Source of the DNA: an uncultured Roseicyclus sp.
GTDB lineage: Bacteria > Pseudomonadota > Alphaproteobacteria > Rhodobacterales > Rhodobacteraceae
Assembly: GCA_947494975.1 (NCBI GenBank)
Contig: CANLXA010000001.1
Location: forward strand, 620,001 to 684,000
DNA length: 64,000 nucleotides
Reading direction: 5' to 3'
Shown here: one piece after another, positions 8,132 to 10,860 of the stretch
How the letters are laid out: every line of letters begins with the position of its first letter
Position numbering within the stretch: position 1 is the stretch's first letter
The notes under the pieces: model-generated
Told to the model about the DNA's origin: nothing
The model's database searches: none
The model's input: only the letters and a program-made list of their open reading frames with translations
Program-made: the position numbers and the translations under genes

Positions 8132-8641
8132 ATGCCCATTGAGCCCGCCACGCCTGACCCCACCCCCAAAGGCCCCCCGCGCCTGCACCTTGTGCTGACC
8201 CCGTACAAGTCCCTCACGCCAGAGGGGTTCGTCTGGTTCATCGGCGCCACGGCCGCGCTGATCTCGGTGCCCTTGTTCTCGATTCTTGGCACATCCGTCT
8301 TCTGGGCGCTTCTGCCGTTCCTGATCGCCGCGATCTGGGGCGTCTGGTCGGCGCTGAAACGGTCTTGGCGCGACATGGACCTCTACGAGGAAGTCACCGT
8401 CTGGGATGACCTGATCCGCATTGAGCGGCACGAACCCAAGCGCGACGTGAAGGATTGGGAGGCGAACCCCTATTGGGTGCGTGCGACGTTGCACGCCAAG
8501 GGAGGCCCGGTGCCGAATTACCTGACCCTCAAGGGCGGCGCGCGCGAGGTGGAATTGGGCGCATTCCTGACCCCGCTTGAACGGGTGGAGTTGAAGGAAA
8601 TCCTCGAACGCAGCCTCGGATCCGCAACGCCCGTCACCTGA
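8132..8641 (+). CDS. DUF2244 membrane protein
   Basis: 169 residues. The internal ATG at 8132 is preferred over an upstream one at 8018 because the upstream stretch is not protein-like. Two membrane helices (about 33-52 and 55-75) follow a Pro-rich N-terminus, and the soluble C-terminal half has the DUF2244 pattern (LYEEVTVWDDLIRIER, WVRATLH, LTLKGGAREVELG, FLTPLERVEL). The family is common in alphaproteobacteria and often lies near respiratory genes; its function is unknown to me. Its upstream 220 bp carry no recognisable gene. Confidence 0.8.
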   Translation: MPIEPATPDPTPKGPPRLHLVLTPYKSLTPEGFVWFIGATAALISVPLFSILGTSVFWALLPFLIAAIWGVWSALKRSWRDMDLYEEVTVWDDLIRIERHEPKRDVKDWEANPYWVRATLHAKGGPVPNYLTLKGGAREVELGAFLTPLERVELKEILERSLGSATPVT

Positions 8642-9015
8642 CCCGTCGGGCAAATTTTTCCCGATCCGCTAATCCATTATTAACCCAACCGGCGGATAAA
8701 GCCCTTGGTCGACCAGGCAGGTCCCGGGGTAAAGCCCGCATCTGCCATCCAGGATCTTTGAGCGTTTGCACCCGATCCGCGCCCCCAAAGGCCAAGATCG
8801 GGTTGGACATTCCCTCGCGCATTCTGTGCCATCGGGGTCGTTGACACCGACCTCTTGCAAACCGGTCCGCCCCTGGCGGCGCCGCCTCTTTTACAGAGAA
8901 ACCCACGCCGATTCCTGCAAATCGGCGGGATTTCGAAAAATCGGTGCGCCAGCCGCGCACCCATGCAATAAGCTGCTTCCCAACCGATGTGGACGTCTAC
9001 AAGGGGAAGGCCGCG
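8642..9015. other. 374-bp control region upstream of the AraC-type gene
   Basis: No gene. It holds a 38-bp operator-like element (8907-8944), a weaker related half-site near 8846-8868 (CCGACCTCTTGCAAACCGG), an inverted repeat CCCGATC...GATCGGG (8769-8801), and a CtrA-like CTAA-N7-TTAA at 8669-8683. A TTGACA at 8841 has no convincing -10 partner. Confidence 0.5.
8907..8944 (+). promoter_or_regulatory. operator-like element, copy A
   Basis: Reads GCCGATTCC-TGCAAATC then, after an 8-nt variable part, GATTT...AAATCGG. It matches the element at 10068-10105 over 38 bp with the same distance between the GCAAATC and AAATCGG blocks. It ends 71 bp before the AraC-type gene start. Two copies framing a regulator gene and preceding both it and its neighbour are the expected arrangement for binding sites of that regulator (inference). 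Confidence 0.55.
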
Positions 9016-10092
9016 ATGGAGTTTCTCGATCTTGCCATGCGCGGGGCCTCGATCAGCCTCCTGATGCTGCTCGCGGGCCTGCTCTGGCGTGCGCCCATCG
9101 GGTGGGAGGGCCGGATCTCGATCGTCGCAGTCGCCGTCACGAAATCCGCAATGCTCCTGAGCTACGCTGCCCTGCCCCTCGATCTGTCGCCCCTGGTCAC
9201 CGCCAACCTGATCCTGTTCTCCAGCCTCGTGCCCAACGCGATCACCTGGCTGATCGTGACGATCTTCCTCGACCCGCCGGGCCGACGCTGGCCGTGGCTC
9301 GTCGCGTCCTCCATCGTGTCGGCGCATTTCTATCTGCATCAGACCGCACCGGATTGGGTGGCGCTTGTGCCCTGCGCGGCCACCGCGACGCTCCTGTACG
9401 GCGCGCTGTTCGGCTTGGCGCTCTGGTCCTCCCGCGATGATCTGGTGGAGTGCCGCTGCCGCGCGCGGCCCGGTTTCGCGGTGGCCATCGCGGGGCTTGG
9501 GCTGGTTCTGACCGGCGTGCAGGCACTTGGCGTAATGGATCCGGGGTCTGTCTCCTTCGCGCTTCTGCAATCCGCGGGCGTTCTGGCCGTGACCACGGCA
9601 TTCGCGGTGTGGATCCTTGCGCCAAATATCGATCTCTGGCCCGGTGCGCCGGATCACCCCGCCCCTGCCCCGCGCCCAAGCACCAGCCATCCAGATGCCG
9701 CCCTGATTGCGCGCGTGCGGGCCGCCATGGCCGAAGGCATCTGGCGGGAAGAGGGGCTGACCATCGGCGCGCTCGCCGCCCGGCTCAGCGTGCCGGAGCA
9801 TCGCCTGCGCCGTGCGATCAATGGCGGGCTGGGGCATCGCAACTTCTCAAGCTTCATCAACGCCCATCGCATCGCTGCCGCCAAGGCGCAGCTCGGCGAT
9901 CCGGAGGCAGAGGGCACGACGGTTCTGGAGATTGCCTATGATGTGGGCTTTGCCTCCCTCGGGCCGTTCAACCGTGCCTTCCGGGCGGAGACCGGGCAAA
10001 GCCCGACGGAGTTCCGGCGCGCGGCCCTGTCGCCCCCGACACACCGCGCCGATTCCGAACATCCCGCGCCGATCCCGGCAAATCTGCACTGA
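9016..10092 (+). CDS. AraC-family regulator with N-terminal membrane domain
   Basis: 358 residues from the ATG at 9016 (AAGG 5 nt upstream). The first ~205 residues form about six or seven hydrophobic helices; a Pro/Ala linker (PAPAPRPSTSHP) leads to a C-terminal AraC double helix-turn-helix (about 240-345; LTIGALAARLSVPEHRLRRAI, INAHRIAAAKAQL, VLEIAYDVGFASLGPFNRAFR, TGQSPTEFRR). This is the 7TM-AraC one-component sensor layout: a membrane signal changes DNA binding. Flanked by two copies of a shared 38-bp element, one upstream of itself and one overlapping its stop and preceding a small secreted peptide gene. Confidence 0.88.
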   Translation: MEFLDLAMRGASISLLMLLAGLLWRAPIGWEGRISIVAVAVTKSAMLLSYAALPLDLSPLVTANLILFSSLVPNAITWLIVTIFLDPPGRRWPWLVASSIVSAHFYLHQTAPDWVALVPCAATATLLYGALFGLALWSSRDDLVECRCRARPGFAVAIAGLGLVLTGVQALGVMDPGSVSFALLQSAGVLAVTTAFAVWILAPNIDLWPGAPDHPAPAPRPSTSHPDAALIARVRAAMAEGIWREEGLTIGALAARLSVPEHRLRRAINGGLGHRNFSSFINAHRIAAAKAQLGDPEAEGTTVLEIAYDVGFASLGPFNRAFRAETGQSPTEFRRAALSPPTHRADSEHPAPIPANLH

Positions 10093-10105
10093 TTTCTGAA
10101 ATCGG
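10068..10105 (+). promoter_or_regulatory. operator-like element, copy B
   Basis: Second copy of the 38-bp element, overlapping the stop codon of the AraC-type gene and lying 62 bp before the small secreted-peptide gene. It reads GCCGATCCCGGCAAATC, then GATTTCTGAAATC, which is a perfect palindrome around the central T, then GG. An extra GCCGATTCC half lies just upstream at 10048-10056. Confidence 0.55.
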
Positions 10106-10167
10106 ACGGATCGTGCGGCGCGGGCATCCCATCCTGATGGCATCACGCAACCATCAGGAGATCTTCC

Positions 10168-10323
10168 ATGCGTCCTCTCATCCTGGCCGCCCTTGCAGCC
10201 ACCGCGCTCAGCGCGCCACTTGCGGCTCAGAGCATCGCGTTTCCGTCACTCACATTCCCCGAGCCGGGCACGTTTTGCGGCCCGCTGCAACTCTGCACAC
10301 CGGAGGTGACCCGCGGCAATTAA
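10168..10323 (+). CDS. 51-residue secreted peptide
   Basis: An ATG at 10168 is preceded by AGGAG with a 7-nt gap and opens a 51-codon frame. It encodes MRPLILAALAATALSAPLAAQ, a textbook signal peptide with an AAQ cleavage end, and a mature part of about 30 residues rich in Pro and Phe with two cysteines seven residues apart (FCGPLQLC) that could form a disulfide. I know no family. Its position directly behind a membrane AraC regulator, with a shared operator in front, suggests it is that regulator's target. A palindromic hairpin follows at 10393-10418. Confidence 0.7.
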   Translation: MRPLILAALAATALSAPLAAQSIAFPSLTFPEPGTFCGPLQLCTPEVTRGN

Positions 10324-10392
10324 GGCTGTGTCATGGTGCCGGACCTGGCCCGGCGGGCAGGACGTTGTCCGCCCACCATACCCGACTTTGGC

Positions 10393-10418
10393 AAGACCGG
10401 CTCAGCTGAGCCGGTCTT
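10393..10418. terminator. 26-bp perfect palindrome, probable bidirectional terminator
   Basis: The sequence reads the same on both strands: AAGACCGGCTCAG in each half. As RNA it gives an 11-bp stem with an AGCU loop, followed on the plus strand by UUC. It includes the last four codons and stop of the convergent yqeY gene, so one hairpin could end both that gene and the small secreted-peptide transcript. No long U tract, so efficiency is uncertain. Confidence 0.5.
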
Positions 10419-10860
10419 TCACCATCGGCCCGACGAGGCCGAAATCCATCTGGCCGGCATATTTGCCCTTCAGCGCACCCATCACGCGGCCCATGTCGCG
10501 GATGCTTTCGGCACCGGCCTCGGTAATCGCCGCCTCAACCGCGGCGGCGGTTTCCTTCTCAGACAATTGGCGCGGCAGGAATTCCTCGATCACCGCGATC
10601 TCCGCCTGTTCCTGCTCGGCCAGTTCCAGCCGCCCGCCCTCTTCATAGGCGCGCGCGCTTTCCTGGCGTTGTTTGACCATCTTGGCCAGGATCGCCAGCA
10701 CCTCGGCCTCGCCGACGCCATCGGCATTGCCCTTGGCGCGCGCCGCGATGTCCTGATCCTTCACCGCCGCATTGATCAGGCGCAGCGTCGACAGGCGCAC
10801 GCTGTCCTTCTCGCGCATCGCGCTTTTGATCCCGTCGGTGATTTTTGTCCGCAAACCCAT
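10402..10860 (-). CDS. GatB/YqeY domain protein
   Basis: 152 residues, start at the ATG at 10860. This is the stand-alone YqeY family, homologous to the C-terminal tRNA-binding tail of GatB. Visible family segments: DSVRLSTLRLINAAVKDQDI, AILAKMVKQRQESARAYEEGGR, EIAVIEEFLPRQLSE, and MGRVMGALKGKYAGQMD near the end. The role is thought to concern tRNA-dependent amidation or tRNA handling but is not settled. It is divergent from carA with 140 bp between starts, a pairing common in this order. Confidence 0.93.
   Translation of the reverse strand: MGLRTKITDGIKSAMREKDSVRLSTLRLINAAVKDQDIAARAKGNADGVGEAEVLAILAKMVKQRQESARAYEEGGRLELAEQEQAEIAVIEEFLPRQLSEKETAAAVEAAITEAGAESIRDMGRVMGALKGKYAGQMDFGLVGPMVKDRLS

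Follow-up and report, generated by a model that had tools for sequence, protein, structure and literature searches.

A conserved gene pair of a predicted membrane AraC-type regulator and a small, predicted exported peptide in Rhodobacteraceae, with a candidate shared operator

The window, by which we mean the whole 64-kb stretch of DNA that was analysed, comes from a marine-type bacterium and carries a gene for a predicted membrane AraC-type regulator, followed on the same strand by a gene for a small peptide that is predicted to be exported. A repeat array that we treat as a putative operator lies ahead of each of them (Table 1). A first-pass annotation, made from the letters, had described a membrane AraC-type gene, a 51-residue frame with a signal-peptide-like start and two cysteines, and two matching 38-bp elements (8907-8944 and 10068-10105); all of these are present. 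The next ORF downstream of the peptide gene lies on the other strand and is a YqeY-type gene, and no TetR gene was found there.

Table 1. Features of the regulator-peptide locus, with coordinates in the window.
Feature	Coordinates	Strand	Basis
Putative operator 1, upstream of regulator	8907..8949	+	two direct repeats, then GTGCGC
Membrane AraC-type regulator (predicted), 358 aa	9016..10092	+	ORF, Pfam HTH_18 E=3.4e-16, orthologues
Sensor part, residues 1-201	9016..9618	+	AlphaFold2, mean pLDDT 79.4, pTM 0.56
Residues 139-154 SRDDLVECRCRARPGF, predicted cytoplasmic loop after helix 5, CxC pair	9430..9477	+	alignments
AraC-type DNA-binding domain, about residues 228-338	9697..10029	+	Pfam, AlphaFold2 model, Foldseek
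Putative operator 2	10048..10105	+	three units 20 bp apart: 10048, 10068, 10088
Ribosome-binding-site-like AGGAGA ahead of peptide gene	10156..10161	+	sequence
Exported (predicted) micropeptide gene, 51 aa	10168..10323	+	ORF, conservation, dN/dS

The ATG start of the regulator was set from the alignment, the ORF itself opening at GTG 8944. Besides HTH_18, Pfam matched HTH_AraC (E=7.5e-08), and no match to a receiver or kinase domain was obtained at E≤1. In a Foldseek search with the regulator, AraC structures stood at the top of the list (best E=1.4e-03). The sensor part gave only weak GPCR-like matches against PDB with Foldseek, none of them at E≤0.001. AlphaFold2 predicted sensor helices at residues 2-24, 30-49, 59-84, 92-110, 114-142, 150-170 and 179-201, seven in all when 59-70 and 72-84 are counted as one kinked helix, so the chain combines several predicted membrane helices with an AraC-type domain. 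The C-terminal tail was predicted to be disordered. Placing the DNA-binding domain inside puts the N-terminus outside, and in the window regulator arginines occur in the inner loops and none in the outer loops, which agrees with this predicted topology. If 59-70 and 72-84 each crossed the membrane on its own, this topology would be inverted.

As a measure of loop conservation we averaged, over the columns of each loop, how often the most common residue occurs among 19 dereplicated sequences. It was 0.80, 0.83 and 0.91 for the inner loops and 0.58, 0.40 and 0.42 for the outer loops (5-10 columns each), the latter being the least conserved helix-to-helix loops of the regulator. The highest conservation within the sensor part was found in the segment with the CxC pair. 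Because the inner loops and the CxC pair are conserved and the outer loops vary, a cue within the membrane or at its inner face is favoured. The CxC pair occurs in the branch whose peptides have cysteines and is absent in 11 of 11 relatives without C-x5-C peptides, and this co-occurrence may perhaps reflect a single ancestral event. At one locus (L079) only one of these two cysteines is present in the regulator, and the peptide still has its pair. L078, with three stops in its regulator frame, was left out of the regulator alignment and its peptide was retained, and alignments A3 and A4 were made without L082 (37% identity, no peptide).

The peptide has a predicted signal peptide at about residues 1-20 and a mature part of about 31 aa with a FPEPGTFCGPLQLC core; the signal peptide and cleavage site were judged by eye and with a crude screen instead of a trained predictor. 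Non-conservation of this frame had been named in the first-pass annotation as a reason to abandon its proposal. The frame is conserved, and selection on it was evident from dN/dS values of 0.04-0.23 in all eight gene pairs, compared without gaps, while four frame-shifted controls gave 0.98-3.7. A spurious small ORF is ruled out by the frame conservation and these dN/dS values. The fold model of the peptide was poor (pLDDT 66.8). Pfam gave nothing above chance for 25 peptide members (best E=0.062, two DUF models being hit by one member each), NCBIfam gave no match for four members, and neither did a PDB sequence search with the peptide.

The position of the peptide beside the regulator recurs among relatives. 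At all 25 distinct loci with a close regulator orthologue, a small exported (predicted) peptide with a C-x5-C motif was found 74-80 nt past the regulator stop. In this number, five loci of a wider search that repeat genus loci were counted once, as were L083 and L084, which look like L069 and L074, and L022, apparently a fragment of the L005 gene cut off at a contig end. Ten of the 13 genus genomes carry the regulator orthologue and all 10 carry the peptide; in G003 and G004 of this set neither was found. The other genome, G001, has kept an intact peptide frame, which opens about 200 nt beyond a gene that we read as DUF2244-like, and its regulator is missing (best match E=4.6e-4). Compared with two relatives, the G001 peptide had a dN/dS of 0.23-0.26, a value that stems partly from the time before the regulator was lost. 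The wider regulator search returned 21 loci, 20 of them in Rhodobacteraceae or Rhodobacterales at 56-97% identity and one distant (37%), and the peptide was present at all 20 closer loci and absent at the distant one. The closest named relative at the regulator locus was an uncultured Roseicyclus (97% identity), and a plasmid search gave a single distant match (37%). When the window and 19 pair loci were grouped by shared flanking genes (five of the 25 pair loci were left out), they fell into nine groups, with one weak link within a group, so the pair stays joined while its surroundings change. A functional tie to the neighbouring DUF2244, YqeY and ctaD-like genes (the last label being our own reading) was unsupported, and these neighbours differ in other genera. 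At L078 (3995-4987), in a metagenome-assembled genome, the regulator frame is broken and the peptide frame is open.

Further away the peptide changes. In a family sample of one genome per genus (394 genomes, E≤1e-30) 15 regulator matches were found. Four were orthologues with a C-x5-C peptide, two (L085 and L087) had a cysteine-free small exported (predicted) peptide with a proline core at 45 nt, and the remaining nine (L086, L088-L095) failed the crude signal-peptide screen. The regulator was found in four of six genomes of the L085 genus, and all four, L085 included, carry the cysteine-free peptide at 42-45 nt; five more distant loci in total have such a peptide at this distance. A profile comparison of the C-x5-C and cysteine-free groups gave a probability of 97. 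The idea that the peptide is defined by its cysteine chemistry is ruled out by this sister branch. Class-wide (385 genomes, E≤1e-30) only distant regulator relatives were recovered, with at most 180 bits outside the own genome. The crude screen was passed by 24 of the 25 pair loci (L004 fails) and by two of 38 more distant AraC-type loci, in unrelated frames; these 38 comprise 19 class-wide loci, one of which passes, and 19 from the genus search. A general rule that a membrane AraC regulator has a peptide neighbour is ruled out by this difference.

The two 38-bp elements have identical letters at 26 of 38 positions. Elsewhere in the window the best 38-mers had 24, 23 and 22 matches, the one with 24 being the reverse complement of the first element. 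We built a pattern from the letters common to both elements and allowed up to three mismatches. It matched twice in the window and not at all in 100 shuffles. In the 4.55-Mb genome G000 it matched exactly twice, both times at the pair locus, and the same was found in the close relative G011; the reversed pattern, used as a control, had no match in either genome. The elements are thus not scattered at random through the genome, and a chance repeat as their source is ruled out by the window shuffles together with the genome-wide scan. A separate pattern for the regulator's own promoter, scanned in the 13 genus genomes, gave one match each in eight of them, seven at the regulator promoter and the eighth a stray in G004, which has no regulator. 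The promoters of G005, G008 and G009 were not matched by it, and its reversed form matched in none of the 13.

Both elements are placed as the first-pass annotation gives them, the first upstream of the AraC-type gene and the second before the peptide gene. The second does not stand free between the genes: it overlaps the regulator stop and belongs to a longer array with an extra unit at about 10048-10059, 20 bp upstream. Units 1 and 2 of this array lie inside the C-terminal codons of the regulator and unit 3 lies across the stop codon (10090-10092). The array is written into the last regulator codons (10048-10092), where it is seen as unusual synonymous conservation. In 24 aligned regulator genes, codons for the same residue were identical at 71% in the operator-overlapping tail, against 44% in the gene body and 49% in the DNA-binding domain, and none of 274 runs of 13 columns in the gene body equalled the codon identity of the tail. 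As the protein tail is predicted to be disordered, this codon identity indicates that the constraint acts on the DNA, and a lag of 20 bp, no multiple of three, means that the repeat cannot derive from a protein repeat. The regulator tail is best read as carrying a putative operator embedded in its codons.

In operator 1 the repeats (8910-8925 and 8929-8944) are 19 bp apart and 12/16 identical, and a TANNNW -10-like site begins 19 nt beyond the array. Taken at this single locus, these repeats were equalled in score by 8 of 100 shuffles. We scored repeat lags of 15-30 bp at each locus, excluding L063 (contig end) and L078 (broken frame) from the upstream analyses. The best lag was 17-22 bp in 23 of 23 regulator upstream regions, and of the 25 peptide promoters, 14 had their best lag at exactly 20 bp and 11 at another value. 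Against shuffles (≤5 of 100), 12 of 23 upstream regions and four of 25 peptide promoters passed when taken singly. Because the repeats of single loci are often non-significant, the case lies in the agreement among loci. In 19 of the 23 regulator promoters, TANNNW begins exactly 19 nt past the promoter-proximal unit, against a background of 0.04 per position. Of the 25 peptide promoters, 14 have a [CT]AT-type site, likewise at 19 nt (against 0.03 per position); both patterns were picked after inspection of the sequences. TANNNW itself was found at 19 nt in only 3/25 peptide promoters, so the -10 there is poor. A second conserved [CT]AT-type site, for example GGCATC, was seen about 30 nt past the last repeat in 13 of 25 peptide promoters. 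A consensus sigma-70 scan of 8800-10500 found no promoter, and no Rfam family reached its gathering score for structured RNA in 8600-10500. In AraC-type class II activators the site stands in for the -35 element, and the equal spacing at both promoters, with a repeat apparently replacing -35, resembles this layout.

The first peptide search in the 394 genomes also gathered, at weak E-values, other short exported proteins. Among them was a second and more widespread set of exported (predicted) micropeptides with a PxLTFP core and usually two cysteines (L036, L040, L041, L042, L059, L139, L141, L145, L149, L153 and L159-L188). Several of the gathered peptides have the core PxLTFPEP, and mostly they lie between a divergent gene and a second gene that we take, by our own reading and with no family search behind it, to be mbfA-like and TetR-like respectively. 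Palindromes resembling TetR sites precede these peptides, e.g. GAACTGATCGGTTCA in L040. A model built from ten TetR-linked peptides, with up to 16 candidates scored per genome, matched at E≤1e-5 in at least 73 of the 394 sampled Rhodobacteraceae genomes, a number that includes the ten model genomes and the window's own. Among the matches listed (30 loci), 20 loci lay outside the model, and with strict text patterns a TetR-like motif was found downstream at 14 of these, an mbfA-like motif upstream at 13, and both at nine. The window peptide, itself outside the model, matched it with E=4.9e-7 over positions 1-52 of 56. A profile-profile comparison of the window peptide group with the TetR-linked peptides gave a probability of 94, most of the columns compared being signal peptide. 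NCBIfam gave no match for one TetR-linked PxLTFP member. By these sequence comparisons, the window peptide is assigned to a wider family found mostly beside TetR-like genes.

That one regulator acts through one type of operator on its own gene and on the peptide gene, as the first-pass annotation had proposed, is well supported by the comparison of loci, and we consider it very probable. On balance we also consider it probable that the two genes form a module in which a self-activating membrane regulator drives the exported peptide as its output. The first gene would then encode a one-component activator kept in the inner membrane by seven helices, with its N-terminus outside and its AraC-type DNA-binding domain at the inner face. 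It would bind repeats spaced by about 20 bp, which would replace the -35 element at its own promoter and at that of the peptide. A cue would be sensed in the membrane or at the inner face, the conserved CxC loop being the best candidate site, and upon this cue the regulator would raise its own level and turn on the peptide gene. The 51-residue precursor would leave the cytoplasm through the Sec pathway and be cut down to about 31 residues, and the mature peptide would act as the response output in the cell envelope or outside, and may also feed back.

The first-pass annotation had left it at signal or output, and the balance now leans to output. That the peptide is mainly an output and not the ligand of the regulator is moderately supported, since the peptide outlives the regulator in G001, relatives of the peptide adjoin genes of other regulators, and the regulator is not conserved on its outer face. 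The loss in G001 may be recent, so the retention of the peptide there is only moderate evidence. The alternative, in which the peptide, once exported, serves as a pheromone or feedback ligand that the regulator reads from the periplasmic side, closing a self-amplifying or self-limiting loop, would fit the adjacency at 25 of 25 loci and the operator common to both genes. It would also fit the finding that branches with differing peptides (C-x5-C or cysteine-free) differ in the sensor part too. With the DNA-binding domain corrected for, peptide distance was correlated with sensor-part distance in 19 sequences (partial r 0.27, permutation p 0.023), but the partial correlation with the DNA-binding domain was almost equal (0.24). 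The outer loops, through which such a ligand would be read, are short and variable, whereas the peptide core is constant. A peptide for which no regulator is found, as in G001, runs counter to what a pheromone and its receptor would lead one to expect, and related peptides accompany TetR-like genes. We regard this signalling reading as rather unlikely. A broader version of it seems unlikely as well: proline-rich, Sec-exported micropeptides of Rhodobacteraceae (core PxLTFPEP, often two cysteines) would be placed under unrelated self-controlled regulators, namely seven-helix AraC, TetR and perhaps LuxR-like, and the peptide of the AraC branch would talk back to its regulator. If it did so, the pair would form a circuit in which a peptide serves envelope or cell-cell signalling, of a build that we do not know from alphaproteobacteria.

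The regulator might also act on itself only, the second element being an old duplicate and the peptide gene an independent neighbour. The elements are just 26/38 identical and the peptide survives alone in G001, as this would predict; however, the second array is constrained as DNA inside the codons of 24 aligned genes, the spacing to the -10-like site is alike at both promoters, and the pair is intact across nine neighbourhood groups, which makes such independence very unlikely. Repression of both promoters, with the cue lifting the block, is likewise very unlikely: the sites do adjoin the presumed promoters, and autorepression is common among regulators, but the promoter-proximal unit appears to replace -35 and keeps a constant spacing to the -10-like site, and the layout, with no sigma-70 consensus promoter found, is like that of AraC-type class II activators.

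Turning from these alternatives to known systems, the proposed module of activator and exported output has several partial likenesses. In Rgg/SHP and similar Gram-positive pheromone pairs a regulator gene adjoins a short exported peptide gene; their receptors are cytoplasmic and of another fold, whereas the window regulator is predicted to be membrane-bound and a ligand action is unsupported. ToxR and TcpP are winged-helix regulators, unlike the AraC-type window regulator. ToxR/ToxS and TcpP/TcpH are similar in joining a membrane one-component activator to a small envelope protein, TcpH being described as a single-pass membrane protein, whereas the window peptide appears to be cleaved and to have no anchor. 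TfoS of Vibrio has a periplasmic sensor domain, and the outer loops of the window regulator are short by contrast; to our knowledge TfoS has no peptide partner. TfoS is listed as a transmembrane regulator of the AraC family and thus is, like the window regulator (here by prediction), an AraC-type membrane transcription activator, but it couples chitin sensing to competence genes, unlike the window module (PMC7564644). In Saccharophagus degradans 16 of 31 AraC-type regulators are membrane-bound, likewise with an AraC-type DNA-binding domain in a membrane protein, and detection of an outside cue was proposed for them; several lie near cellulose-degradation genes, and the part of that article drawn on here describes no exported peptide partner or operator (PMC2386152). 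Membrane-bound AraC-type regulators as such are already known (PMC2386152, PMC7564644). The TetR-linked PxLTFP peptides of Rhodobacteraceae have a like core and also are small exported (predicted) peptides beside a transcription regulator gene, but there the TetR-like gene is downstream of the peptide and the mbfA-like gene is upstream and divergent. We found no description of a membrane AraC regulator paired with an exported peptide in the open-licence literature, and the pair is apparently an undescribed small response system.

As far as we know, a target, cue or operator has been established for few of the membrane-bound regulators of AraC type. The module offers several handles: its putative operator is found only twice in the genome, its single target gene is very small, and it exists in many natural versions. 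The finding also points to a family of exported (predicted) micropeptides that has no family name.

Some further loci showed arrangements of their own. On the minus strand of L090, the operator-like GCGCCGATTTCGAAATCGGCGCGC and a lipoprotein-like frame of 47 residues come after a distant regulator relative. In L093 the operator-like GCGCCGATTTCGAAAACGGCGCGC was seen past the stop of a regulator fragment, with no clear peptide. Beside another membrane AraC-type regulator of the genus (L028), a lipoprotein-like frame of 90 residues that opens at GTG lies about 48 nt past the stop. In L035 (1432-1647) a peptide with the core VPTLSYPEPGT is divergent from a gene whose protein has what we read as a LuxR-like segment, possibly a third type of regulator paired with this peptide family.
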